DNA from: Bacteroidia bacterium
GTDB taxonomy: Bacteria; Bacteroidota; Bacteroidia; UKL13-3
Length of the DNA stretch: 32,845 nucleotides
Reading direction: 5' to 3'
Assembly: GCA_020049855.1 (NCBI GenBank)
Contig: JAGVLJ010000051.1
Coordinates: 1 to 32,845 of the forward strand
The position numbers and the translations under genes were made by a program. Positions 1,368 to 21,392 of this stretch are shown piece after piece. Position 1 is the stretch's first letter, and the number at the start of each line of letters is the position of its first letter. The notes beneath the pieces were generated by a model. That model was not told where the DNA came from, did no database searches, and saw nothing but the letters and a program-made list of their open reading frames with translations.

Positions 1368-2576
1368 ATGAAATTAGCAATGAATATGAAAACATTTACT
1401 TTACTCACGACATTGTTCGCTATAAGCAGCAGCCTTTGGGCACAAAACACGTCAACAGAGGAAACCAATTCATCGGGAAATTCAGGCGATACTAAATTTG
1501 TCCTGACCGGCTACGGATATAGTGGAATGACAATAGAAGGCAAAGGCAAAGAACAAAAATCAACCTTTGGTGAAACCGGTTTCGCCCCAATTTTTATCTG
1601 GAAAGCATCTAAAAACTTATTCTTTGAAGGTGAAGTGGAATTTATACTGTTAGGTGAAGGCCTGGATATAGAATTAGAATATGCAAACGTCAATCTTATT
1701 ATGAACAAATACATGACGCTGCGTGCAGGAAAATTTCTTTCACCCTTTGGCACATTTCAGGAAAAACTACATCCCGCATGGATAAATAAAATGGTAAGTA
1801 AACCTTTGGGATTCGGACACGGAGCCGTTGGACCGGATGCCGAAATCGGTTTCGATTTACGCGGAGGAGTTCCATTGGGCTCTTCTAAAATGAACTACTC
1901 CCTTTATGTTTCCAATGGACCGATACTTCGCACAGGAGTTGAGGAGGAAAACGAAGCCGGTATGTTGGAATATGGCAATATTGTGGACAACAATAAGAAT
2001 AAAGCAATCGGAGGAAGAATCGGATTTTTACCTTTCAGTAATTCATCGTTGGAAATTGGTGTTTCTGCACAAACAGCAAAAGGAGGTAATAATGACTCCA
2101 TTTTTTTCTACAATAAAAAAAACAATGCGATGGATGCACTGGAATATAACAATATCGGAACAAAGTCGTATGCCCTTGATCTTTCTTATGTGAAAAGTTT
2201 GGCTTTCATTAAAGGAACCCTTGACATAAAGGGGCAGTTGAACAATGTTACCGTTGACAAAGCTGATTATGCCGATTTAATAGACAGCACTAAATACTCT
2301 TTTAAAAATGTAACACAGTCCTACTATGTACAACTGGCATACCGTCCCAATATGCTGAGAAATAAATTTTTCAATAAAACAGAATTGGTAGGACGTTACT
2401 CAGCTCTGAAAAGTCCGGAAGAATCAAAATGGGGAGAAGAGGAAACGCAACTTACAATTGGCTTGAATTATTGGGCCAGTTGGAGGTCGGTCATCAAGTT
2501 CAATTATCAGATAACGCAAAATGGTGGTAATGAATCCGAACCTGCCATTTTAATACAATTTGTAACGGGATTTTAA
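1368..2576 (+). CDS. outer-membrane beta-barrel porin, OprP/OprO-like
   Basis: A 402-residue exported protein. A signal peptide ends near SLWAQ. The mature part is built of alternating amphipathic strands rich in aromatic and glycine residues and ends in ...IQFVTGF with a terminal phenylalanine, as outer-membrane barrels do. The stretch LRAGKFLSPFGTFQEKLHPA, near residue 125, recalls phosphate-selective-porin-like proteins of Bacteroidota. It is the first intact gene of a co-oriented series running to 6706 and probably provides the outer-membrane pore for the substrate or product of the respiratory module. In-frame ATGs at 1368, 1380 and 1386 are all possible; the signal peptide itself begins with the third. 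The substrate cannot be told from sequence. Confidence 0.75.
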   Translation: MKLAMNMKTFTLLTTLFAISSSLWAQNTSTEETNSSGNSGDTKFVLTGYGYSGMTIEGKGKEQKSTFGETGFAPIFIWKASKNLFFEGEVEFILLGEGLDIELEYANVNLIMNKYMTLRAGKFLSPFGTFQEKLHPAWINKMVSKPLGFGHGAVGPDAEIGFDLRGGVPLGSSKMNYSLYVSNGPILRTGVEEENEAGMLEYGNIVDNNKNKAIGGRIGFLPFSNSSLEIGVSAQTAKGGNNDSIFFYNKKNNAMDALEYNNIGTKSYALDLSYVKSLAFIKGTLDIKGQLNNVTVDKADYADLIDSTKYSFKNVTQSYYVQLAYRPNMLRNKFFNKTELVGRYSALKSPEESKWGEEETQLTIGLNYWASWRSVIKFNYQITQNGGNESEPAILIQFVTGF

Positions 2577-2602
2577 TTTAAAACACCTTAAAAAATACGA
2601 TT

Positions 2603-2866
2603 ATGAAAAAACGGATCGTGCTATCAGCCATCATTACGGCAATGGGAATGCTCTTTGCGATTAACGGTTGTGTTTCAACAAGGGTTGCTGAAAAAAGTGG
2701 CTCTGAACTTTGGAGTGATAACTGCATCAGGTGTCACAATGCACCTGCCTCCTCAGTTTATTCTCCCGACCAGTGGGAAGCCGTTGCAATGCACATGAGA
2801 ATCAGGGTGGGCTTAACTGAAGTAGAGACCAAAAAGATAATGGAGTTTCTTAAAGCCGGAAACTGA
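2603..2866 (+). CDS. small monoheme cytochrome c, probable lipoprotein
   Basis: An 87-residue protein. Residues 1-22 form a hydrophobic export signal ending at C23 (AINGC), which fits a lipobox loosely because Asn is unusual at the -2 position. One heme motif, CIRCH, lies at residues 41-45. Two methionines (M64, M66) in the helix after it are candidates for the axial ligand. It lies 26 bases after the porin and 86 before the iron-sulfur gene, so it is clearly in the operon. The likely role is a membrane-tethered periplasmic electron carrier. Tethering to the inner or outer membrane cannot be decided. Confidence 0.75.
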   Translation: MKKRIVLSAIITAMGMLFAINGCVSTRVAEKSGSELWSDNCIRCHNAPASSVYSPDQWEAVAMHMRIRVGLTEVETKKIMEFLKAGN

Positions 2867-2952
2867 TATGGCAACAGTTAAGTCATTCAGAATTAGTATA
2901 TGTCTTTGGTTTTGGAAGAAAAAGAACATCCTTAACAAAAAAAAATGAATTT

Positions 2953-3918
2953 ATGAATAATAGTAATAAGAAAACAACCTCCCGCAGAGATTTTTTGCAA
3001 AAAGGACTTTTAGCCGGAACTGCCATTACAGCAAGCGTCATCGGATTGAAAAAAGTCTTCTCGGAGGAAGAAATGCAATCTGCTGACAAATCCATAGTCT
3101 TCTCGCCGAACGGAAAAGTATTTACTGTTGACACAAACAAACTTTGCGAATACACTGCTCCACCTCCGACCAACGACGGAGCACGCATAGGAATAGCAGG
3201 AAAAAAATTCGTTATGGTTATTGACTTGGCCAAATGCGATGGTTGCAAGGCATGCACCGAGTGCTGTCAAGCCATGCATTTCACCGAACCAGATAAAGAA
3301 TGGATAAAAGTCTTCAAGATGCAGGATGCCGAAACGCTCATCCCGTATTATTTCCCAAAACCATGTTTCCACTGCGATAACCCCCCTTGCACCAAGGTTT
3401 GTCCGGTCAATGCCACTTTCAAACGGCAGGACGGAATCGTACTGATTGATAACGAGCGGTGCATCGGCTGCCGCTCTTGTATGGCTGCCTGCCCATATTC
3501 AACCCGGTTCTTTAACTGGTCGCACCCCGTTCAGTCCAAAGAAGTAACCAATATCCCCTATTCGCCTGAACATGGATTCCCACGCAGAATGGGTACCGTA
3601 GAGAAATGCGACTTCTGCCCCCACATGATCCGTCAGGGGAAAATGCCCACCTGTGTTGATGGATGCCCCATGGGGGCTATATGGTTTGGCGACCAAAATG
3701 AAGATGCAGTTACCAACTCAGAGGGCATCACTATGCGACTCAGCCAGCTCATAGAAGATAATGCCGCCTACCGGCACCTTGAGGATTTGGGAACCGAACC
3801 GAGGGTGTATTATCTTCCCCCAAAGAACCGAAAATATCCAAAGCCCGATATGAACGAACAACCCCAACTCCAAAAAGTTAAACATGGAGAAATGAACATG
3901 GGAAATATGCAAATGTGA
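2953..3918 (+). CDS. Tat-exported iron-sulfur subunit with four [4Fe-4S] motifs
   Basis: A 321-residue protein of the DmsB/PsrB/NrfC/HybA type. The twin-arginine signal TTSRRDFLQKGLL at residues 8-20 precedes a hydrophobic stretch, so the folded protein should be exported to the periplasm. Four cysteine groups follow at about residues 95-104, 138-150, 170-180 and 219-238; the last has the long spacing seen in these families. The family passes electrons between a catalytic subunit or cytochrome and an NrfD-type membrane partner, here encoded next. The C-terminus is rich in Met, Asn and Gln, with two Met-containing repeats (EMNMGNMQM). What is unusual is that no molybdopterin catalytic subunit accompanies it in this window. 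Confidence 0.9.
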   Translation: MNNSNKKTTSRRDFLQKGLLAGTAITASVIGLKKVFSEEEMQSADKSIVFSPNGKVFTVDTNKLCEYTAPPPTNDGARIGIAGKKFVMVIDLAKCDGCKACTECCQAMHFTEPDKEWIKVFKMQDAETLIPYYFPKPCFHCDNPPCTKVCPVNATFKRQDGIVLIDNERCIGCRSCMAACPYSTRFFNWSHPVQSKEVTNIPYSPEHGFPRRMGTVEKCDFCPHMIRQGKMPTCVDGCPMGAIWFGDQNEDAVTNSEGITMRLSQLIEDNAAYRHLEDLGTEPRVYYLPPKNRKYPKPDMNEQPQLQKVKHGEMNMGNMQM

Positions 3919-3948
3919 AAAACAATTATAATTAAATGAACAATAAAT

Positions 3949-5358
3949 ATGGAAATTACGGAACAACAATATAACCGCAACGAAGTTGAAGTCCTTCGAG
4001 AGACAAGTATCCGCCCTCTGCGTCAATGGGGAACCAAAGTGAAAATATGGCTTGCCTTCTTAATTCTGGTATGCGGATGGGGTCTTTTCTGTTTTATTTA
4101 CCAGTTGCAACACGGATTGGGTGCCACGGCCATGCGAAATTATGTATCGTGGGGGCTTTACATCGCCACCTTTGTATTTTTCATCGGCATCAGCCACTCC
4201 GGCACTTTGGTTTCAGGCATTCTCCGTATAACAAAGCAGCCCTGGCGGATGCCTATTACCCGATCGGCCGAACTGATGACATTTGTCTCGCTGCTCTTTG
4301 GTGGAATCATGCCGATTATTGACTTAGGTCGTCCTGACCGGCTTCACCACATAGTTCTGTTTGGGCGTCTTCAGTCTCCACTCATTTGGGACGTAATATG
4401 CATCGGAACCTATTTTGTTGGCAGCAGCATGTTCCTGTTTCTGCCTATGATACCCGATATGGCACTTTGCAGAGATCGTTTGAAAGGAACGGCTTCCAAA
4501 TTCCGGTTATGGATTTATGAAAAGTTGTCTTTGGGATGGACTGGAACTCCGATGCAACATAAACGTCTTGAGCTGACAATGACTATTATGACCATTATAA
4601 TTATTCCCATTGCCGTTTCAGTCCACACGGTAGTAGCCTACATTTTTGCCATGACACTACGCCCCGGATGGGACAGCACGGTGTTCGGGCCCTACTTTGT
4701 TGCCGGTGCACTTTACAGTGGCTCGGCCACTGTTATTCTAGCCATGGCCGCCTTCCGGAAATTTTATCATCTTGAAAAATACATAACCCTCAAACACTTT
4801 GACCTTACCGGCAGAATTGTGCTGGCACTTACTCTCATTTACGCCTATATGAACCTGAACGAATACTGGATTCCTGCCTACAAAATGGCGGTAGGCGAAG
4901 GACGGCTGTTAAATGATTTGTTCAGTGGTACTTATGCAAAAGTATTCTGGATACTTCAGTTCGGCACCGTGCTGCTGCCCATTATTGCGATGAGTTTTCC
5001 GGCGGGAAGAAAACCACTTCCTCTCATTATCTCCTGCATCATCATTGTGATTGGAGCCTGGGTTAAACGATATATAATTGTAGTTCCAACGCTCCTACAC
5101 CCATACATGCCCATTCAAGAAGTACCATGGGACTGGGCACATTACTTTCCGAACTGGGTCGAATGGTCGGTAACAATGGGATGCTTTGCCGGCATTTTCC
5201 TCGTGATTACACTTTTTGCAAAATTATTTCCTATGATGGCAATATGGGAGGTGGAAGAAGGAATGAAAATTGAGGAAACAAGACGGCTCGGTATGGAAAT
5301 ATTCAAGAAGAACGAATCAGAAGAAGCCAAAGTGGCAACAACAGATGGAAACAAATAA
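3949..5358 (+). CDS. nrfD: NrfD/PsrC-family quinone-interacting membrane subunit
   Basis: A 469-residue polytopic membrane protein with about ten hydrophobic segments, starting at about residue 33. The conserved family stretch IIDLGRPDR lies near residues 123-131, followed by a helix containing histidines. The length matches the ten-helix branch (ActC of alternative complex III, QrcD, TtrC, HybB) rather than the eight-helix PsrC/NrfD branch. The family exchanges electrons with quinone through the adjacent periplasmic iron-sulfur protein, and some members may move protons. The gene follows that subunit by 30 bases and overlaps nothing downstream if the next gene starts at 5402. The symbol names the family, not a demonstrated nitrite-reductase role. 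Confidence 0.88.
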   Translation: MEITEQQYNRNEVEVLRETSIRPLRQWGTKVKIWLAFLILVCGWGLFCFIYQLQHGLGATAMRNYVSWGLYIATFVFFIGISHSGTLVSGILRITKQPWRMPITRSAELMTFVSLLFGGIMPIIDLGRPDRLHHIVLFGRLQSPLIWDVICIGTYFVGSSMFLFLPMIPDMALCRDRLKGTASKFRLWIYEKLSLGWTGTPMQHKRLELTMTIMTIIIIPIAVSVHTVVAYIFAMTLRPGWDSTVFGPYFVAGALYSGSATVILAMAAFRKFYHLEKYITLKHFDLTGRIVLALTLIYAYMNLNEYWIPAYKMAVGEGRLLNDLFSGTYAKVFWILQFGTVLLPIIAMSFPAGRKPLPLIISCIIIVIGAWVKRYIIVVPTLLHPYMPIQEVPWDWAHYFPNWVEWSVTMGCFAGIFLVITLFAKLFPMMAIWEVEEGMKIEETRRLGMEIFKKNESEEAKVATTDGNK

Positions 5359-5401
5359 CCGAATAAATGTGGAGCGTGTAGAACATAAAACATCAGAAAA
5401 A

Positions 5402-6280
5402 ATGAAAAAAACAAATTTTATTCTTACGGCAATCCTATTGATTTGTCTCCCCTTTCTCTTGGTGAAAAATCCGGTATGGGCTCAAAAAAAAGAGTCCTCA
5501 CTTCAATTATCCTTTCTCAAGAAAGCCGATCAGAGTAAAAATATTCTCCTAACGGTGAAGGCAAGAAACGAAGCAGGAAAGTTTGCTCCAGCCCCAAATG
5601 CATCACTCTCAATTTTTATTAAAAGTAATGAAGAATGGCTGCTTATAAAAACCCTTATCTCTGATTTGGGAGGTAAAGCAAGCATGAAACTGGCTGACGA
5701 TTTGCCAATGGATAACGAAAAATATTTCAGCATCATGGCAAAGATTGAAAACGACAGCAGATATGAAGATGCCGAAGAAGAATTGAGAGTCAAAGAATCC
5801 CGCCTTACCCTCTTATTAGACCCGACAGATACGAATCGGATCCTGACTGCTACGGTAACCCAAACCGGCAATGATGGCGAACCAATGCCAGTGCAGGAAG
5901 CCGAAGTGAAGTTTTATGTAGAACGTCTTTTCGGAAAAATGCCGGTAGGCGAGGAATTTGTCGTTGCCACTGATGCAGCGGGTAAAGCAACCTACGCCTT
6001 GCCCAAAAACATTCCATCATCCGACACGCTCGGCAATCTGACTATTGTGGCGGTCATAGAAAACAACGAAACATTCGGAACCGTGGAAAGCAATGCTTCT
6101 GCAAAATGGGGTGTTCCTCTCCAATGGGAAAAAGACCCGTTTCCACGTGCTTTATGGGAGCCTAGGGCACCACCTGCCATGATTCTGTTCTTTGCTATTG
6201 TTTTCGGAGGGATATGGCTCACTTATTTCTTTGTAATATTCCAATTAATTAAAGTGCACAGCGAAACAAAAATTAAATAA
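5402..6280 (+). CDS. membrane-anchored periplasmic beta-sandwich protein, unknown function
   Basis: A 292-residue protein. I chose the ATG at 5402 because a clean signal peptide starts there and ends near PVWAQ. The frame is open upstream to 5270, but that part overlaps the NrfD gene and is hydrophilic. Two segments of alternating strands, with phrases such as GKFAPAPNASLSIFI and DAAGKATYALP, look like Ig-like domains of the kind found in adhesion and copper-handling proteins. A single hydrophobic helix near residues 256-283 anchors the C-terminus. There are no cysteines for heme or clusters, so it is not a redox protein itself. Its place between NrfD and cytochrome c suggests a structural or docking subunit of the complex. 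I know no named family for it. Confidence 0.7.
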   Translation: MKKTNFILTAILLICLPFLLVKNPVWAQKKESSLQLSFLKKADQSKNILLTVKARNEAGKFAPAPNASLSIFIKSNEEWLLIKTLISDLGGKASMKLADDLPMDNEKYFSIMAKIENDSRYEDAEEELRVKESRLTLLLDPTDTNRILTATVTQTGNDGEPMPVQEAEVKFYVERLFGKMPVGEEFVVATDAAGKATYALPKNIPSSDTLGNLTIVAVIENNETFGTVESNASAKWGVPLQWEKDPFPRALWEPRAPPAMILFFAIVFGGIWLTYFFVIFQLIKVHSETKIK

Positions 6281-6292
6281 CAATCAAAAATT

Positions 6293-6706
6293 ATGAAAAC
6301 AACCAAAACAATCACTCCACTGATTGCATGCAGTCTCTTGTTATTTGCATTCGTTCATCAAACCGATGTATGGAAAGCACCTGAATCGGCAAAGGCAAAA
6401 AAAAACCCGGTTGCAATAACCGAAGCGTCTATGGCTATTGGTGCAAAACTTTATGTAAAAGAATGCCTTTCTTGTCACGGCAAAAAAGGAAGAGGCGATG
6501 GACCAAAAGCATCCGACATTGAAAAACCGGTTACCGACCTGTCCATAGCAAAAACACAGGCACAAACCGATGGCGAACTCTTCTGGAAAATTTCAGAGGG
6601 AAGAAAACCCATGCCCGCAAATAAGAAAATCTTTAGCGAGGAACAGCTATGGCAACTTGTAAATTATATACGTAGCTTCGACAAAACGATTGTTAAATCA
6701 AAGTAA
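6293..6706 (+). CDS. monoheme class I-like cytochrome c
   Basis: A 137-residue exported protein, with an N-terminal hydrophobic signal or anchor at about residues 8-22. The single heme site CLSCH lies at residues 58-62, followed by GKKGRGDGP as in small cytochromes c of electron-transfer chains. M107 in GRKPMPANK is the likely sixth ligand. The final helix carries EEQLWQLVNYIRSF, a conserved ending of this family. It starts 12 bases after the previous gene and closes the operon. It probably accepts electrons from the iron-sulfur/NrfD module and passes them to a terminal oxidase or reductase. A decayed relative lies at 762-1217. Confidence 0.85.
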   Translation: MKTTKTITPLIACSLLLFAFVHQTDVWKAPESAKAKKNPVAITEASMAIGAKLYVKECLSCHGKKGRGDGPKASDIEKPVTDLSIAKTQAQTDGELFWKISEGRKPMPANKKIFSEEQLWQLVNYIRSFDKTIVKSK

Positions 6707-9255: not shown

Positions 9256-11433
9256 TTATTGACCTAAGGTTACTAATGCTTCAAAACTTATATTTCCTGT
9301 ATTGGTGTCGTAATAGGCGGCCACTATACCCAGATTTCCACTCCCCACCTGTTCTCTTAAATAAATACTCGATGATAAAATTTCGTTCACAGAATTTTGG
9401 GCATTTAAACGACTGGATTTATCCAGTAACTCACCGGGAAGCAGAGTTCCTGTTTTACCAACGATTAAAGCAACTTTATCTACCGATGGCTGAATTTTGT
9501 TGGTAATCATCGCTATTTTTCCTTCATTTATTTTATGTATAGCGGCATTTACGGCACCACAATTTGAATGTCCCATTACGACAATCAGTTTAATACCAAT
9601 TTCTTTGTGAGATAGTTCCATACTTCCTATAATTTCGGGGCTGACAATATTTCCTCCAATCCGGATAGAGATCAGATCTCCTAAGTTGGCATCAAAAACC
9701 ACTTCGGGGGAAGTTCTTGAATCAATGCAACTTAGAACAGCCACCATCGGAAATTGCCCGGTAGCGGTAGCATTCATCTGATGCATGAATTCCTTTTTTG
9801 ACCATTTACCTTTAAGAAAACGTTCATTGCCGGCCTTCAATAAATTTAGTATTGCTTCAGGAGTTAACCGTTCACGGGTGTTTTTATCAAGCACATTTAC
9901 AAATTGTATGTGGTCTGTAAGTTGGTATTCCTTTTTTAGCCCTATTTTGTTAAGCTTAATTTTTTTCTCCGGAGCTACAACTTCTTTGAAATCTTTTAAT
10001 ATTTCAAGAACATCGTTATCAATGTAATCCGTATTTGTAGCATCAATAATTACCTGAGAATTTTCGGGAATGCTCCACAAAGTTTCTTTAATGGTGGCTT
10101 TATTGAGAAAGGATACCTGATTGGGCAATTCGATGCGGATAGTTTCATTGCTATAAACATTTTCCTTTCCTATCTTAAACGGATTTCTGAAATTGCTCCT
10201 TAACAGGTAAAAAATACTTACGCCCAAGCCAATCAAAATCCCTATTAGTAAATCGGTAAGAAGAATTCCCATTATCGTTGCTATAAAAGGGATAAACTGA
10301 TTCCATCCCTTTTGAAACATTTCTTTAAATAGCTTTCCCTTTGCTAATTTATATCCGGTCATAATCAATATAGAAGCTAACGTAGCCAATGGAATCATAT
10401 TTAAAACAGAGGCAATTGTTAAAATACTGATAAGTAAAAATAAGCCATGTAGTATGGCAGATAATTTGGTTTTAGCTCCTGCATCAATATTTACTGAACT
10501 TCTAACAATTACTGATGTTACAGGCAACCCACCAAAAAATCCCGCTAACATATTTCCAAGCCCCTGGGCAATAAGTTCTTTATTAGGCGGTGATTCCCTT
10601 TTGTGTGGGTCAATGTTATCAACCGCTTCCAGGTTTAATAATGTTTCTAACGAAGCGACAATGGCTATTGTGAAAGCAACAATCCACACATTATAATCAG
10701 CAAGGGCAGACAATGCAGGAAGCTTTATTGTAAACAATTCTGAAATATCGGGCGAAGGTATATTTACCAAATGAGGCCCTTCAATATAAAAGTCAGGAGT
10801 AAATCTTCGAAAAACTTCATTAAGTCCAATACTTAAAGCAACAACGATTAACGAAGCCGGCAAAAAATTTACTTTTTTCAATGTTTTATCCCATAAAACA
10901 AGCAATAGCATAGATATAAAACTGATAACTAAAGATCCGGCATTGAAATGATTAAAACTTCCTAATAAGTGAGAAAAAGTATTTTCGCCATTGGGTTGAA
11001 TAAAAGAAAAAGCATCTTCATGGTCGGCATCGTAACCAATAGCGTGGGGAATTTGTTTTAAGATGAGTAAAATTCCAATTGCAGCTAATAACCCTTTAAT
11101 AACATTTGAGGGTATGTAATTTGCAATTATCCCACCTTTAAAATATCCTCCTGCCATTTGTAAAAAGCCCGCTATTAAAAGGGCTGTCGAAAAAATTTCA
11201 AATCCGCCAAGCCTAGTTATTGAAGCAAGTACAATAGCAGCAAGACCTGCTGCCGGGCCGCTTACACTTGTTTGAGATCCACTAAAAAAACCTACTACTA
11301 TTCCTCCTATAACTCCTGAAATTATACCTGATAACAAAGGAGCGCCTGAAGCTAAGGCCACACCTAAGCATAATGGCAGTGCGACAAGATATACCACAAG
11401 GCCTGCCGGCAAATCATATTTTAAATTTTTCAT
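9256..11433 (-). CDS. SulP anion transporter fused to beta-carbonic anhydrase
   Basis: A 725-residue fusion. Residues 1 to about 405 are a SulP membrane domain (opening PAGLVVYLVALPLCLGVALA; GLPVTSVIVRSSVNIDAGAKT later). Residues of about 430-540 form a STAS-like domain. Residues of about 545-725 are a beta-class carbonic anhydrase with its zinc ligands C569 (in CIDSR, with the D571/R573 pair), H622 and C625 (GHSNCGAV). Such SulP-anhydrase fusions are known in several bacteria and are thought to couple HCO3- or sulfate-type anion transport to CO2/HCO3- interconversion. All catalytic ligands are present, so the enzyme part should be active. Bicarbonate uptake is the likeliest role, but sulfate cannot be excluded. 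The next genes encode MgtC and a zinc-type ATPase, which suggests linked ion and zinc handling. Confidence 0.93.
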   Translation of the reverse strand: MKNLKYDLPAGLVVYLVALPLCLGVALASGAPLLSGIISGVIGGIVVGFFSGSQTSVSGPAAGLAAIVLASITRLGGFEIFSTALLIAGFLQMAGGYFKGGIIANYIPSNVIKGLLAAIGILLILKQIPHAIGYDADHEDAFSFIQPNGENTFSHLLGSFNHFNAGSLVISFISMLLLVLWDKTLKKVNFLPASLIVVALSIGLNEVFRRFTPDFYIEGPHLVNIPSPDISELFTIKLPALSALADYNVWIVAFTIAIVASLETLLNLEAVDNIDPHKRESPPNKELIAQGLGNMLAGFFGGLPVTSVIVRSSVNIDAGAKTKLSAILHGLFLLISILTIASVLNMIPLATLASILIMTGYKLAKGKLFKEMFQKGWNQFIPFIATIMGILLTDLLIGILIGLGVSIFYLLRSNFRNPFKIGKENVYSNETIRIELPNQVSFLNKATIKETLWSIPENSQVIIDATNTDYIDNDVLEILKDFKEVVAPEKKIKLNKIGLKKEYQLTDHIQFVNVLDKNTRERLTPEAILNLLKAGNERFLKGKWSKKEFMHQMNATATGQFPMVAVLSCIDSRTSPEVVFDANLGDLISIRIGGNIVSPEIIGSMELSHKEIGIKLIVVMGHSNCGAVNAAIHKINEGKIAMITNKIQPSVDKVALIVGKTGTLLPGELLDKSSRLNAQNSVNEILSSSIYLREQVGSGNLGIVAAYYDTNTGNISFEALVTLGQ

Positions 11434-13962: not shown

Positions 13963-16900
13963 TTATTTGTTGACTAAGAAATTGATATTAATAATAGACT
14001 GATTGTATAGATTCAGGTTATTGAGGTATTCTGATTTAATGGAAATTGCCTGGGTAAGATTCTGAATATATTCCACATAGCTGATTGCACCTTTTGAGTA
14101 TGACAACTGTGTCACCTTTAGTTGTTCATCAGCTTGATTCAACCCTGTGTTTTCGTAATAGTTCAACAATGCGGCAAATTTCTGATACTCCTGTATCTGC
14201 CTACTATATGCAGTCTTTAAATTATTGACCGTATTTTGCCAGGCTTTCTGAGCAGTCATAACTCTAAATTGCGAAGATTGAATGCGTCCGGACTGGGCAT
14301 TGAAAAAAACGGGGGCAGAAATTCCGAATTGAATGCCTGCAACTCGGGTTCCGGGGAAATAATTGCGATTTATATCAGCCGGGTTAAAAGAGGAAAGCAA
14401 ATATTGATGGTAATACCCGATGGTAAAATCAGGCAGCAATTTGTTTTTTTCATAACGCAATTGATATTTTGCCAGATTAATCTGCTGTTCATAAAAACCA
14501 TAAACCGGATTTTGCTTTACCAGAGCGGTATCAGGGTTTAAGGTAAAGGGGAGTTTTGTCAGTTTGATATCGGAAAAACCAAGAGCATCGGTAGTGTTAA
14601 GAAGTTTTTGCAGTTCCAGCATGGCAATGTTCCTATCTGCTTCCGTCTGTTGTTTGAGAAGCCGTATTTCCTGATATTTATTTTGTGCAGAAAGTTTTTC
14701 AAGGTTGGATGTTTCACCCGTTTTGAATCTGAGCTCGGCAGCATTGGAAAAAATTTTGTAAATACTGTCCTGATATGTGAGTAGTTTCAATTTTTCGATG
14801 AAATAAGCCAAATTATAATATGCAATTTTCACATCACGTATCAATTCATTTTGCGTAACGGCAGAAAGTTTTTCGCTGAGGGCTGTTTGCTGCGTCAGAA
14901 TTTTACTTTGAGAAGAATAAACAGTGGGAAAAGAAAAACTTTGTGTGATTCCAAAACTATTGTCAATGTTACCGCCACTGGTGGGGTCCTGTATCAGCGA
15001 AAAATTAGTTCTATCAATCTCCCATCCTGTTTTCTGCAATGCTTTATTTTGCTGTACTTCCATCCGGGTAGCCTGTAAACCGGGGTTATTTTTAAATGCA
15101 ATGCCTATTGCGTCTTCAACGGTAAGTTGTATTGGCGTAGTTGAAGTTTGAGCAGTTACGTTGCCGCTAAAAACAAACATCAGCAATACAATGGTTGTAA
15201 GAATAGTTGGTTTCATGCCTTCAGCTCCGCTCAGTCCGTGTTTTCTCGTTTTTGAAAATAAAATATAGAGCAAGGGTAATACAAAAAGTGTAAGGAATGT
15301 TGCTGTAATCAGCCCGCCGATTACAACGGTTGCCAATGGCTTCTGCACTTCCGCACCCGCACCGTGCGAAAAAGCCATCGGGAAAAATCCAAGCGATGCA
15401 ACGGTGGCTGTCATCAACACCGGTCGCAAACGGATTTTTGTTCCTTCTTTTATCCGTTCTAAAATGCCGGTCATTCCTTCTTTTTCCAACTGGTTGAAAG
15501 TTCCAATAAGCACAATGCCGTTTAAGACCGCTACACCAAACAAGGCAATAAAACCGATACCTGCCGAAATGCTGAAAGGCATATCACGAATGAGCAAAGC
15601 GAAAACACCGCCTATGGCACTCATTGGAATAGCTGTGTAAATTAGGGTTGCTTGTTTTACTGAACTGAATGTGAAATAGAGCAACATAAAAATGAGTGCC
15701 AGGGCAACTGGCAAAGCAATCATAAGTCGTTTGGATGCTGCTTGTAAATTTTCAAATGTTCCTCCATACGTGTAGTAATATCCTTCGGGCAATTTTACAT
15801 TTTCATCAAGTTGCGTTTGAATGTCGGCAACAACACTTGCTACATCTCTGCCTTTAATGTTGAACCCTATCACAATTCTTCGTTTGCCGTCTTCACGGCT
15901 TATTTGTGCAGGCCCCAATTCCATTTTAATGTCGGCAACTTGTGATAAAGGGATTTGAGTTCCGTTTGCAGTAGGAATATACAAATGGCTTACATCGTCA
16001 ATGTTGTTTCGGTGTGTGCTGTCTAAGCGAACCACCAAATCAAATTTGCGTTCGTTTTCATAAACTACACCTGCTCCACCACCTGCAAAAGCGGTGCTTA
16101 CAATGTGGTTAATATCCTCGATGTTCAAACCATAATTGGCAATTTGCGAACGGTTGTATTTGATTACGATTTGTGGAAGTCCTGCAACCCTCTCAACACT
16201 TGGTTCGGTTGCACCATCCACACCTTGAACAACTGAATTCACTTTATTGGCGTAAGTTAAAAGTGTGTCCATGTTTTCACCGAAAATTTTCACGGCTACA
16301 TCTTGGCGTATGCCTGTCATCAGTTCATTAAACCTCATTTGAATAGGTTGGTTTTTTTCAAAGAAAACTCCAGGGATTGTGTTTAATTGTTCTTCAAACT
16401 CTTCTGCCAGTTCATCATAAGAAATATCCCGTTTCCATTTATCAGGTGATTTCAGAATTATCATCATATCAGTGGCTTCGGGTGGCATTGGGTCGGTGGG
16501 AACTTCGGCTGCACCTGTTTTTCCTACTACCATTTTCACCTCGTCAAATGCTTTTATCAGCCGTGATGCCTGCATGGAAGTTTCCAAACTTTGCGAAAGG
16601 GATGTTCCTTGCGGCAAAATGCAATGAAAAGCAAAATCACCTTCCTGCAAGGTTGGTATAAATTCACCACCCATTTTTGAAAACAGGAAAACAGAAATTA
16701 TAAATACCGCAACAGTTGCACCTACAAATACTTTTTTGAAACGAATAGCTGTTTCTAATAATGGTGCATAAATGCTTTGGAAAAAGTTCATCATTCTATC
16801 ACTAAAAGTTTTTTTGTGTGATATATTTCTCGGTAAAATCAAAGCACTCATCATAGGAATGTAAGAGAGTGAAAGAAACATTGCACCAATAATTGCGAAA

Positions 16901-18345
16901 GAAACTACCTGTGCCATGGGGCGAAACATTTTTCCTTCAATGCCAATCAAACTAAGGATTGGCAAATAGACAATCATTATAATAATTTGTCCGAACGCTG
17001 CACTATTCATCATTCGCTTTGCACTGCTTCCAACAGCTTTGTCCATTTCCATTTGCGAAAGTGCATGAGTTTCCTTTCGGTGTTCTAAAAAATAAAGCGA
17101 TGCTTCAACTATTATAACTGCCCCGTCCACAATCAAACCAAAGTCAATGGCTCCTAAACTCATGAGATTTGCACTTACACCAAATACATTCATTAAACCC
17201 AATGCAAACAGCATGGATAAAGGAATGGCAGAAGCAACAATCAGCCCTGCACGAAGGTTTCCAAGAAACAAAACCAAAACGAAGATTACGATCAAAGCTC
17301 CTTCAATCAGGTTTTTTTCTACAGTGCTGATGGCCCGGTTTACTAAATCGGTTCTGTCAAGGTATGGTTCTATTATCACATCTTGCGGCAACGATTTTTG
17401 GATGGTATGCATTTTATCTTTAATGCGGCTTACCACATCGGCACTGTTTGCACCTTTCAACATCATCACCACGCCACCTACTGCATCAACTTCGCCGTTG
17501 TAAGTCATAGCACCGTAACGCACGGCACTGCCCAAATGCACTTCGGCAACATCTTTAATAAGTATGGGAATGCCGTTTGGGTTGGTTTTGACAACGATGT
17601 TTTTGATGTCGTCAAACGAACCAATCAAACCTACTCCGCGAATGAAATAGGCGTTTGGCTTTTTGTCAATGTATGCACCGCCCGTGTTTTCGTTGTTCTT
17701 TTCAAGTGCTGTAAAAATTTCGGGAATGGTTATTCCCATTGCAATTAACCGGTCGGGATTTACCGCAACCTCATATTGCTTTAGTCGTCCGCCAAAACTG
17801 TTTACTTCCGCAATTCCGGGTGTGCCATACAGTTGTCGGGCAACAATCCAGTCCTGCATCGTCCGCAAGTCCATTGCGGTGTATTTACTTTCACTGCCTT
17901 TCTTCGGGTGAATGATGTATTGATAGACTTCGCCCAAACCTGTGCTTACAGGTGCTAATTCGGGTGTGCCAACACCTTTTGGAATTTTGCTTTCGGCTTC
18001 CTTTAGTCGTTCGTTAATCAGTTGTCGGGCAAAGTAGATGTCCACTTTATCGTGAAACACAACAGTAATTACTGAAAGCCCGAAACGGGAAATGCTTCGC
18101 AACTCTTCCAAGTCAGGAAGGTTGGCAATGCTTTGTTCAATGGGATATGTTACCAACTGTTCTACCTCTTGTCCTGCAAGAGTTGGGCAAACCGTAATGA
18201 TTTGCACCTGGTTGTTGGTGATGTCGGGAACTGCGTCAATAGGCAGTTTGCTTGCACTCCACACTCCCCAAACAATGAGTGCAAGTGTCATCAATGCGAT
18301 GATGAATTTATTTTTTATGCTGAACGCAATTATTTTGTCTAACAT
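13963..18345 (-). CDS. czcA: CzcA-type heavy-metal RND pump fused to a TolC-family outer-membrane channel
   Basis: A 1460-residue fusion. Residues 1 to about 1035 are a complete heavy-metal RND antiporter. The proton-relay helix IDFGLIVDGAVIIVEA carries D401, D407 and E414, the pattern of Zn/Co/Cd/Ni pumps rather than Cu/Ag pumps. Residues 1044-1460 form a TolC-like channel with long coiled-coil helices (LSAQNKYQEIRLLKQQTEAD) and YSKGAISYVEY near the end. The junction retains a complete signal peptide beginning at M1044 (MKPTILTTIVLLMFVFSG) and ending near VTAQ, followed by a typical OEP start. Such fusions occur across Bacteroidota. The pump probably exports zinc, cobalt or cadmium from the periplasm together with the CzcB product. 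Cleavage at the internal signal, or a second start at M1044 (complement of 15214-15216), could deliver the channel separately. Confidence 0.93.
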   Translation of the reverse strand: MLDKIIAFSIKNKFIIALMTLALIVWGVWSASKLPIDAVPDITNNQVQIITVCPTLAGQEVEQLVTYPIEQSIANLPDLEELRSISRFGLSVITVVFHDKVDIYFARQLINERLKEAESKIPKGVGTPELAPVSTGLGEVYQYIIHPKKGSESKYTAMDLRTMQDWIVARQLYGTPGIAEVNSFGGRLKQYEVAVNPDRLIAMGITIPEIFTALEKNNENTGGAYIDKKPNAYFIRGVGLIGSFDDIKNIVVKTNPNGIPILIKDVAEVHLGSAVRYGAMTYNGEVDAVGGVVMMLKGANSADVVSRIKDKMHTIQKSLPQDVIIEPYLDRTDLVNRAISTVEKNLIEGALIVIFVLVLFLGNLRAGLIVASAIPLSMLFALGLMNVFGVSANLMSLGAIDFGLIVDGAVIIVEASLYFLEHRKETHALSQMEMDKAVGSSAKRMMNSAAFGQIIIMIVYLPILSLIGIEGKMFRPMAQVVSFAIIGAMFLSLSYIPMMSALILPRNISHKKTFSDRMMNFFQSIYAPLLETAIRFKKVFVGATVAVFIISVFLFSKMGGEFIPTLQEGDFAFHCILPQGTSLSQSLETSMQASRLIKAFDEVKMVVGKTGAAEVPTDPMPPEATDMMIILKSPDKWKRDISYDELAEEFEEQLNTIPGVFFEKNQPIQMRFNELMTGIRQDVAVKIFGENMDTLLTYANKVNSVVQGVDGATEPSVERVAGLPQIVIKYNRSQIANYGLNIEDINHIVSTAFAGGGAGVVYENERKFDLVVRLDSTHRNNIDDVSHLYIPTANGTQIPLSQVADIKMELGPAQISREDGKRRIVIGFNIKGRDVASVVADIQTQLDENVKLPEGYYYTYGGTFENLQAASKRLMIALPVALALIFMLLYFTFSSVKQATLIYTAIPMSAIGGVFALLIRDMPFSISAGIGFIALFGVAVLNGIVLIGTFNQLEKEGMTGILERIKEGTKIRLRPVLMTATVASLGFFPMAFSHGAGAEVQKPLATVVIGGLITATFLTLFVLPLLYILFSKTRKHGLSGAEGMKPTILTTIVLLMFVFSGNVTAQTSTTPIQLTVEDAIGIAFKNNPGLQATRMEVQQNKALQKTGWEIDRTNFSLIQDPTSGGNIDNSFGITQSFSFPTVYSSQSKILTQQTALSEKLSAVTQNELIRDVKIAYYNLAYFIEKLKLLTYQDSIYKIFSNAAELRFKTGETSNLEKLSAQNKYQEIRLLKQQTEADRNIAMLELQKLLNTTDALGFSDIKLTKLPFTLNPDTALVKQNPVYGFYEQQINLAKYQLRYEKNKLLPDFTIGYYHQYLLSSFNPADINRNYFPGTRVAGIQFGISAPVFFNAQSGRIQSSQFRVMTAQKAWQNTVNNLKTAYSRQIQEYQKFAALLNYYENTGLNQADEQLKVTQLSYSKGAISYVEYIQNLTQAISIKSEYLNNLNLYNQSIININFLVNK

Positions 18346-19292: not shown

Positions 19293-21392
19293 TCAGTAAA
19301 CCGTAAGCCTTCTGCTGATCAAACGACCATCGAACAACAGATGATAGAGATAAACCCCCGGAGCTAATGAATACATTGGAATCTGAACGGAAAAGCTTCC
19401 ACCCCCTTTTGTTCCATTTTCCACTTCTACCAATTCCTTGCCCTGAACATCACTAATCCAGAGTTTCATGTTTCCCTTTTCTGGCAGGTTATAATCTATC
19501 GTAGTGAAATTGTTTACCGGATTCGGAGAATTCTGACCAAGCCAAAAGTTAACAATAGATACTTTTTTATCAATTCCAAGATAAAAATCCTGAATGGTAA
19601 AAGCAGCCTTTGATCTTACAAAAGTGGCTCCTGCAGGGTTGTTCAGTTGAATATGAAATGTTCTGTTTCCGGTACTGAATCCATTCCTGTGAATTTTAAT
19701 CGGAACAAATTTCATCATTTCACCGGGCTGAAAAATGAGTTGTCCGGAAGCACTTTCATAATCGGTACCATTTAAAGCAGAACTATCGAAAGTCGAGTAA
19801 AAGGTCGTAACGACTGAAAAGGCCGGTTCCGATAGAAATACTTTTACATTTACCGTCGTATCAATCGTTGATGGTTCTTGTATTATCACATCACTGATAC
19901 AAATTACCACAATTGGTGCAATAATTACGGTTGTTGTTCCGCTAGATTGTGAGGCAATACCATTCAAGCCATTTGGGCCTGAGCCTAGGGTAGTATTGCT
20001 GCCACCTGAGCCGCCATTACCCGCATTGCCAATGGTAAAAATATTGTCTTTTGTCATAACAGAAGAGGTTCCATTTGAATAGATTCCGATGGACGGTCCA
20101 CCGGAACCACCAGAACCGGAACCACCGGCACCTCCATTACCTCCATTTCCACCTTTGCCACCGGCCCCAACCTCTGCCGTACAAACATTGGCACCATTAC
20201 CTCCGGTTCCTCCGATTCCCCCAAGACCGCCATTGCCGCCATTACCGCCATTACCACCATTACCCGTGAATATTTTATTGTTCTCTAAAATAACCTTTGC
20301 ATTTGAAACCAACACAGCGATAGAAGCTCCCCCTCCCTTTCCTGAGGTTCCGCCAATACCACCGCATCCACCGCTTCCACCACCACCTCCTCCATTACCT
20401 GATCCTTTGTCGCACAGGCTGCAATCCTCAGCCCCGCCACCGCCACCGCCACCACCACCATTACCGGCCAGAGCGTTTGATCCATTAACCCCATCACCTG
20501 GTTGATACATAGTGCCTGAAATTGTTCCAGCAACAGCGGCTGTTCCGTTTATTCCATTGACTCCTGTTATTCCATTATTTCCATTGCCACCTGAATTGCC
20601 CGGATTTCCCCATGTACCTGCAAACCCCCCAGAAGTACCCCCTCCACCATTACTTCCCGAAAATCCATTGTTTTGGCCTTCATTTCCACCTGCACCACCT
20701 GCACCACCTGCTTTGCCGCATATTGAGGTTCCTCCAGATCCACCGATTCCACCTGTTGCTGCATTACAACTACCTGAAGAACCGGCAGTTCCACTTAAGC
20801 CATTGTTGCCAGAATTTCCATTAGAACCCGCGGCTCCTGCGGCTGCGTTTCCAGCTCTGATGGAATTATTGCTGAGGATCAGGGTTCCAGTTCCGCCACT
20901 AACCAGTACGCCATAAGAGCTTTCGCCCGGGCTTGCCGGACTTAAACCCCCAATATCAAATCCATCTAAACGAGTATCTGTTGTAAGATTGTCAGCTCTT
21001 ACGGGAACTGAAATTCCTCTGAGGTTTGTGCTATTTGCTGAAGAGCGACTCCAATTCGGCATACCATCAAATTGACCGTAAACATTAACCCCTGAGACCA
21101 TGAGTAATGAAGCAGACAAGTTATAGATTCCTTTGGATACATATACGTCTTTATTGGCCAGCTTGGCGATGGCAATTCCTTTGTCAATTGTTTTCACAGG
21201 GGCACCCATGGTTCCCGCGTTTAAATCATCTCCGTTGGTCCCATCAACAAAAATCGCCTTGTCCTTATCACCATCTATGCCATCTCCATTGACATCCTGA
21301 TAAAACATATCCGGTATATCCACCGGTGGGCAAACTTGTGCAGTTAATTGAAAACTGAAAGTTATAATTACTGATAGAATTATCTTTTTCAT
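19293..21392 (-). CDS. glycine-rich beta-helix/Calx-beta surface protein with T9SS sorting domain
   Basis: A 699-residue secreted protein. A signal peptide (to about residue 19, LTAQV) is followed by an aspartate-rich DVNGDGIDGDKD stretch and a pectate-lyase/DUF1565-like opening (AIFVDGTNGDDLNAGT, residues 47-62). Residues of about 180-480 are dominated by Gly, Asn and Ser, with triplets such as GGNGGN resembling PGRS tracts. Three short beta-helix-like rungs interrupt it (near residues 159-180, 357-376 and 434-454). Residues of about 500-602 fit a Calx-beta domain (NGTDYESASGQLIFQPGE). The end, about residues 617-699, has the type A sorting pattern GQNSPNPVNNFTTI and finishes in RLTVY. T9SS would carry it to the cell surface or outside. 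The function is unknown, perhaps adhesive or structural. Confidence 0.85.
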   Translation of the reverse strand: MKKIILSVIITFSFQLTAQVCPPVDIPDMFYQDVNGDGIDGDKDKAIFVDGTNGDDLNAGTMGAPVKTIDKGIAIAKLANKDVYVSKGIYNLSASLLMVSGVNVYGQFDGMPNWSRSSANSTNLRGISVPVRADNLTTDTRLDGFDIGGLSPASPGESSYGVLVSGGTGTLILSNNSIRAGNAAAGAAGSNGNSGNNGLSGTAGSSGSCNAATGGIGGSGGTSICGKAGGAGGAGGNEGQNNGFSGSNGGGGTSGGFAGTWGNPGNSGGNGNNGITGVNGINGTAAVAGTISGTMYQPGDGVNGSNALAGNGGGGGGGGGAEDCSLCDKGSGNGGGGGGSGGCGGIGGTSGKGGGASIAVLVSNAKVILENNKIFTGNGGNGGNGGNGGLGGIGGTGGNGANVCTAEVGAGGKGGNGGNGGAGGSGSGGSGGPSIGIYSNGTSSVMTKDNIFTIGNAGNGGSGGSNTTLGSGPNGLNGIASQSSGTTTVIIAPIVVICISDVIIQEPSTIDTTVNVKVFLSEPAFSVVTTFYSTFDSSALNGTDYESASGQLIFQPGEMMKFVPIKIHRNGFSTGNRTFHIQLNNPAGATFVRSKAAFTIQDFYLGIDKKVSIVNFWLGQNSPNPVNNFTTIDYNLPEKGNMKLWISDVQGKELVEVENGTKGGGSFSVQIPMYSLAPGVYLYHLLFDGRLISRRLTVY

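Follow-up and report, generated by a model that had tools for sequence, protein, structure and literature searches.

A recurrent Fe-S/NrfD gene module of Bacteroidota that lacks a molybdopterin subunit and probably encodes a minimal menaquinol:cytochrome c oxidoreductase

The 32,845-nucleotide stretch of DNA analysed here (the window; contig JAGVLJ010000051.1 of Bacteroidia bacterium assembly GCA_020049855.1) carries an operon at 1368-6706 that encodes an iron-sulfur (Fe-S) subunit and an NrfD-type membrane subunit together with two cytochromes, an immunoglobulin (Ig)-like protein and a porin, and it raises the question of what such a pair does when no molybdopterin catalytic subunit is encoded beside it. 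A sequence-only reading of the operon had assumed that an Fe-S/NrfD pair works as a rule with a molybdopterin or ActB subunit. That assumption does not hold, as SirCD of Shewanella and CbcSTU of Geobacter (PMC11434368) and NrfCD of Melioribacter (PMC3534657) are known molybdenum-free quinol dehydrogenases that feed cytochromes. Compared by description, these systems share with the window operon a four-cluster Fe-S protein paired with NrfD, the lack of a molybdopterin subunit and the presence of cytochrome partners; their partners are multiheme, whereas the module described here has monoheme cytochromes, an Ig-like protein and an NrfD of the ActC branch. The molybdenum-free pairing is already established, and what appears to be new is the gene set with the Ig-like protein and monoheme cytochromes. 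Judged from the comparisons below, the operon probably encodes a minimal menaquinol:cytochrome c oxidoreductase whose electrons go to acceptors in the periplasm or at the outer membrane, a function that the sequence-only reading had proposed and that remains the best fit after searches for a molybdopterin subunit and placement of NrfD relative to ActC, neither of which refuted it.

The six open reading frames (ORFs) of the operon are intact, share one orientation and are separated by gaps of 12-86 bp (Table 1). Their initial identification as a porin, two monoheme cytochromes, an Fe-S protein exported by twin-arginine translocation (Tat), an NrfD and an anchored Ig-like protein was confirmed by the ORFs and by Pfam, which returned two cytochrome c families, several 4Fe-4S families, NrfD, a weak Big_1 and a weak porin match. 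The set is a recurrent module and not a chance neighbourhood, because its families are found together in other genomes too. Across about 65 loci the Fe-S–NrfD–Ig–cytochrome c core is nearly invariant and the outer-membrane part is variable, consisting either of the window porin and its lipoprotein cytochrome or of a DUF5777 barrel accompanied by lipoprotein cytochromes and EB_dh-type proteins. The conserved synteny that had been suggested as a check is thus present in other Bacteroidota genomes, with all six families together in the window and at four further loci (L040, L111, L125 and L131). Searching with the window NrfD, we found module-type NrfD proteins in 16 of 64 genomes of the order, 39 of 395 in a sample of the class and about 12 of 395 in one of the whole phylum, three of the latter lying outside the class; full-length module NrfDs score at least 307 bits, and the remaining phylum-sample matches, presumably mostly ActC, score at most 265. 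Short exact patterns of the window protein gave seven matches in a scan of named genomes, all labelled Bacteroidota. A literature search that covered few subscription journals found no description of the six-gene set, and no complex with this gene set is listed in the accessible part of an NrfD survey (PMC8076601).

The pair could in principle serve an unlinked molybdopterin catalytic subunit encoded elsewhere in the genome, as Fe-S/NrfD pairs of the complex iron-sulfur molybdoenzyme family do in many bacteria (PMC8076601). The window genome (G000; 2.9 Mb, 99.4% complete) has a single PF00384 protein, a formate dehydrogenase next to a NuoEF-like protein, and among 34 module-carrying genomes searched for this family nine have no member at all and the others have none on the module contig, except G367, where it lies 2 Mb away. 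No molybdopterin subunit was found beside the orthologous operons in these genomes, which upholds the sequence-only reading on this point. On these inventories a molybdopterin partner, linked or unlinked, was rejected, and we hold the unlinked case to be extremely improbable. The absence of such a catalytic subunit sets the module apart from Psr, Dms, Ttr and Arr.

A second alternative is that the operon is a reduced alternative complex III (ACIII) that has lost subunits and kept the task of feeding oxidases. The closest solved relative of the window NrfD is indeed ActC (6btm_C, 219.7 bits), and in a tree whose comparison set comprised four solved ActC proteins, local ActC and DsrP, with SirD, CbcU, QrcD, PsrC and TtrC not included, module NrfD and ActC group together against DsrP at 100/100 support. 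The 11 ActC rows, the four solved structures among them, make up a tight clade (100/100) on a long branch, and the window NrfD falls outside it; placement inside ActC is not supported, and the window protein groups with ActC as sister or stem rather than deep within ACIII. A divergent module row (L167) joins ActC at 97/94, module monophyly is still not rejected (approximately unbiased test, p 0.089), and for the module family as a whole the trees fit ActC either as sister or stem or as nested within it.

The likeness to ACIII extends to functional residues. When the residues of R. marinus ActC (PMC5928083, PMC8076601) were transferred through an alignment to 6btm_C, all 13 positions of the N-side (cytoplasmic) half-channel and all six of the quinol pocket were identical in the window NrfD, as were Ser164 and Asp169; Arg395 is kept, as are four of the six P-side half-channel positions, and His139 corresponds to Asp125. 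Proton movement through the half-channel is a proposal, not a demonstration, in PMC5928083 and PMC8076601, and in Qrc the Arg equivalent to Arg395 did not act like a pump gate (PMC13059093). The Fe-S partner is likewise a four-cluster protein, and the cytochrome c encoded last in the operon is 32% identical (1e-17) to ActE of its own genome. Set against this likeness, G000 already has a complete ACIII: its three NrfD genes are the window's, that of a paralogous module (L008, on contig C70; 48% identity) and the ActC gene of ACIII (L009). Pentaheme ActA, the ActB1-ActB2 fusion with its molybdopterin-like ActB1, ActD and ActF are absent from the window operon and are part of the module at none of the roughly 65 loci (at L109 an act cluster begins nearby as a separate, divergent operon), and the module adds a membrane-anchored Ig-like subunit and outer-membrane parts. 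In ActB the motif with three Cys is motif III, and its single [3Fe-4S] cluster adjoins the quinone site (PMC5928083), whereas motif III of the module has all four Cys, so that the electron path probably uses the full cluster wire and not the ActA branch of ACIII. FNR-like regulators adjoin many of the loci of the window's type described below, and taken with these differences they make a reduced ACIII distinctly improbable in our assessment.

The Fe-S subunit of the window carries the Tat motif SRRDFLQKG and 16 ligand Cys, and the Fe-S subunits of the module form a clade of their own (86/94) apart from ActB2 (one row), DsrO, NrfC and HybA. By their motifs the modules fall into two subfamilies, W (the window's) and C, of which C is the commoner. 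Motif I has four Cys in 16 of 16 W-type subunits and lacks its second Cys in 55 of 55 C-type subunits, where Ala, Leu, Glu, Val or Lys stands instead; the remaining motifs keep their Cys except for two Ser, and C-type motif I is predicted to ligate a [3Fe-4S] cluster. In the fold of this family (NarH, PsrB) the cluster held by motif I is the one most distant from the membrane, at the electron exit end. The residue states of the window NrfD are kept in 15-17 of 17 W-type sequences, and many half-channel positions are lost in C-type NrfD, with Leu replacing ActC His97 in 52 of 60 and Ala replacing Thr125 in 53 of 60. The W type combines four 4-Cys motifs with an intact half-channel, a frequent FNR-like regulator and, at part of its loci, the window porin and lipoprotein cytochrome. 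Loci were first sorted by best BLAST match, and the divergent L093 and L095 were moved out of the W group on their Fe-S motif and the tree. Among W loci of at least 11 kb (n=13), 13 encode the Fe-S subunit, 13 the Ig-like protein, 12 the cytochrome c, 12 an outer-membrane barrel and eight an FNR-like regulator; the corresponding C-type and divergent loci (n=44) have Fe-S in 44, Ig in 43, cytochrome in 39 and a barrel in 33. At L094 and L096 other kinds of Fe-S/NrfD pair stand in tandem with the module, with up to three NrfD genes per locus.

Bacteroidota often carry a Sec-type (clade II) nitrous oxide reductase, and no account of the route by which quinol electrons reach periplasmic reductases in this phylum was found in our literature search. 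Besides aa3 and cbb3 oxidases and NorBC, G000 itself encodes Sec-type NosZ in a cluster that includes an FNR-like regulator, and this prompted the choice of NosZ as the only trait tested for association with the module. Sec-type NosZ (TIGR04246) occurs in 30 of 39 genomes of the class with the module vs 100 of 356 without it (Fisher 3.5e-9, not corrected for relatedness) and in 15 of 16 vs 13 of 48 genomes of the order (2.8e-6), and permutation within genera gave p 3e-5. The effect is confined to genomes whose modules are all counted as C type (25 of 30, a count that includes G266, which carries L101, is W-type by tree and has no NosZ). Because the association is limited to this type, the C form probably donates electrons to NosZ and Nor; the W form may serve a different acceptor at low oxygen, possibly one at the outer membrane. 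In the C-type module L008 an EB_dh-type cytochrome comes first, followed by a lipoprotein cytochrome, a DUF5777 barrel and then the Fe-S, NrfD, Ig-like and cytochrome c genes; about 18 kb separate this module from the cbb3 oxidase genes (L175).

The Ig-like protein distinguishes the module from the systems compared so far. Its gene likely starts at 5402 rather than at a TTG at 5270, and an AlphaFold2 model built from eight sequences (mean predicted local distance difference test score, pLDDT, 68) shows a signal peptide, two beta-sandwich domains with strands in 33-234, and a helix at 258-289. Residues 132-236 match macroglobulin/Ig-type sandwiches among solved structures (Z 9-10.8); a known redox or docking fold was considered and set aside, the matches being generic sandwiches that are uninformative on function. 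Of 57 loci of at least 11 kb, 56 encode the protein on its own; in the remaining one, L090, the domain is fused behind the cytochrome c. It is fused behind NrfD in L101, a short contig that also carries Fe-S, cytochrome c and window-type porin genes. These natural fusions tie the protein to the NrfD and cytochrome c core and support its membership in the complex. The docking role that it had been assigned at first may follow from such membership.

The outer-membrane part of the operon is the less constant one. The porin falls below the Pfam Porin_O_P cut-off (17.1 vs 20.9 bits), and its model, whose low confidence (pLDDT 54) supports barrel size and nothing finer, has about 16 strands and general porins as its closest solved folds. 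It is the sole gene of its family in G000, and relatives adjoin other modules in L040, L101, L106, L111, L125, L126 and L131, followed by the lipoprotein cytochrome in L040, L111, L125 and L131. The suggested link of the porin to an outer-membrane process is no more than circumstantial, since relatives have either this porin or a DUF5777 barrel in that position. A barrel and cytochrome beside an inner-membrane quinol dehydrogenase recall the MtrCAB conduit, in which a large barrel holds a multiheme cytochrome. The module barrel is of ordinary size (402 amino acids, aa), each cytochrome has one heme and there is no decaheme protein, and by these sequence features the window porin and cytochrome are not a conduit of the MtrCAB type. 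Next to C-type or divergent modules (L093, L095, L089, L098 and L124) are lipoproteins that carry two to six CxxCH motifs and in some cases a collagen-like GPxG stalk; they are candidates for surface electron transfer.

In the proposed mechanism, menaquinol would bind NrfD at the periplasmic face, where the pocket residues are conserved, and its electrons would pass to the membrane-near cluster and along the four [4Fe-4S] clusters to the outer end of the Fe-S subunit, a route suggested by the motifs and the known fold. The membrane-anchored Ig-like protein may hold the ActE-like cytochrome c there as acceptor, an arrangement with which the fusions agree. This cytochrome would reduce periplasmic partners, including the porin-linked lipoprotein cytochrome, and electrons may in this way be delivered to an acceptor located at the outer membrane or close to it, as the lipobox, barrel and synteny suggest. 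Quinol oxidation may couple to proton movement through the ActC-like half-channel. The complex is probably active under low oxygen, alongside the ACIII of the genome, which presumably serves oxidases, and the sister (C) subfamily, also present in G000, probably supplies electrons for the reduction of nitrous oxide and nitric oxide.

Several observations weigh against this mechanism, and the first concerns its direction. By analogy with Qrc the reaction could run in reverse, with oxidation at the outer membrane or in the periplasm passing electrons through the cytochromes and the Fe-S/NrfD pair to menaquinone. The W-type NrfD, like QrcD, has Asp at the position of ActC His139 (PMC8076601, which reports this residue for the quinone sites of QrcD and DsrP1; others share it), reduction of menaquinone by QrcCD, with protons taken up from the cytoplasm, has been demonstrated (PMC13059093), and EB_dh-type lipoproteins accompany many relatives, the EB_dh domain serving elsewhere to pass on electrons from oxidised substrates. 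The sister subfamily, on the other hand, tracks an electron-accepting pathway, NosZ, and the monoheme cytochrome resembles ActE, which belongs to a quinol-oxidising complex, and we judge the Qrc direction unlikely. The best NCBIfam profile matches of the window pair do come from DsrO/DsrP and QrcC/QrcD, but all lie below the equivalog cut-offs (DsrO 183.9 of 200 bits, DsrP 116 of 350, QrcC 146 of 400, QrcD 77 of 570), and assignment as DsrOP or QrcCD was rejected; DsrP falls outside the clade of module NrfD and ActC, and neither DsrMK and DsrJ nor QrcA and QrcB were seen near the module. As further points against oxidation of menaquinol as proposed, W-type genomes carry NosZ in five of nine cases (p 0.08, not significant), and a NosZ link was dropped for this type; the window's own operon has no adjoining FNR-like gene; and the window's porin family lies within 7 kb in only 6 of 13 W loci, the others having DUF5777 barrels, so that the porin is not a fixed part. 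ActC Asp253 (Ile in the window), Tyr323 and Glu394 are replaced in the window NrfD, and the proton path is consequently not simply that of ActC. The NrfD-Ig and cytochrome c-Ig fusions are one case each, in draft genomes, and a signal-peptide-like segment at the L101 join makes a lost stop codon or an assembly fault possible.

A broader interpretation, which we offer only tentatively and consider doubtful, is that the module is a distinct Bacteroidota complex in two forms. The C form, with its predicted [3Fe-4S] outer cluster and eroded half-channel, would supply nitrous oxide respiration with its missing menaquinol-cytochrome c link; the W form, with all clusters predicted as [4Fe-4S] and an intact half-channel, would be an electrogenic line to an outer-membrane acceptor; and the Fe-S/NrfD core would resemble the ancestral stock that gave rise to the ActB2-ActC core of ACIII.

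Upstream of the operon lie two ORFs (424-702 and 762-1217) that are probably the remains of a tandem second module. In the first the twin arginine is lost and the ORF ends just ahead of motif I, and in the second conserved residues around the heme site are lost. Because tandem modules are common in relatives (L108, L110, L118, L119, L124, L127 and L131), a decayed neighbour copy is the simplest reading. A small Tat-signal protein of 78-104 aa is conserved directly upstream of the Fe-S gene in many C-type modules (L044, L045, L046, L047, L089, L097, L102, L103, L114, L116, L121-L124 and L131); its sole resemblance is to the N-terminal linker of the Fe-S subunit, and it lacks cluster motifs. The first ORF was rejected as such a protein, its best match being full Fe-S subunits and its twin arginine being lost. 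The second was rejected as the intact lead gene of a cytochrome-porin-cytochrome cassette (L040, L051, L054 and L056): the order fits, but its closest relative is the last cytochrome c gene of the operon and heme-site residues are lost.

Table 1. Genes of the operon and probable remnants upstream of it (window coordinates).
Start	End	Strand	Feature	Details
424	702	+	Remnant of paralogous Fe-S subunit N-terminus, decayed (probable)	50% identity over 76 aa to L120 Fe-S N-terminus
762	1217	+	Cytochrome c paralogue, probably a decayed remnant	47% identity to 6293-6706 over 90 aa
1368	2576	+	Porin-size outer-membrane beta-barrel	402 aa; weak Pfam Porin_O_P match
2603	2866	+	Monoheme cytochrome c, predicted lipoprotein	87 aa; one CxxCH, lipobox INGC
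2953	3918	+	Tat-exported Fe-S subunit, four 4-Cys motifs	321 aa; Pfam Fer4 families
3949	5358	+	NrfD-type quinol-binding membrane subunit	469 aa; PF03916 111.6 bits
5402	6280	+	Periplasmic two-domain Ig-like protein, C-terminal membrane helix	292 aa; weak Pfam Big_1
6293	6706	+	Monoheme cytochrome c, ActE-like	137 aa; Pfam Cytochrome_CBB3

Elsewhere in the window, 9256-11433 encodes a SulP-type transporter that, as read from the sequence, is apparently fused to a beta-carbonic anhydrase domain. A 1460-aa ORF at 13963-18345 appears to combine a CzcA-type RND (resistance-nodulation-division) pump with a TolC-like outer-membrane efflux domain; a signal-like segment lies where the two meet, and the ORF may be a fusion or the product of a lost stop. 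The ORF at 19293-21392 encodes a predicted surface protein of 699 aa that is glycine-rich, with long GG-repeat stretches and an apparent C-terminal secretion tail.

Whether NrfD subunits move protons is still argued for ACIII and Qrc (PMC13059093), and the W/C pair, with and without an ActC-like half-channel and the extra cluster Cys, is a natural experiment on this question. A compact complex that tracks NosZ within genera likewise makes the route of quinol electrons to NosZ testable by deletion.

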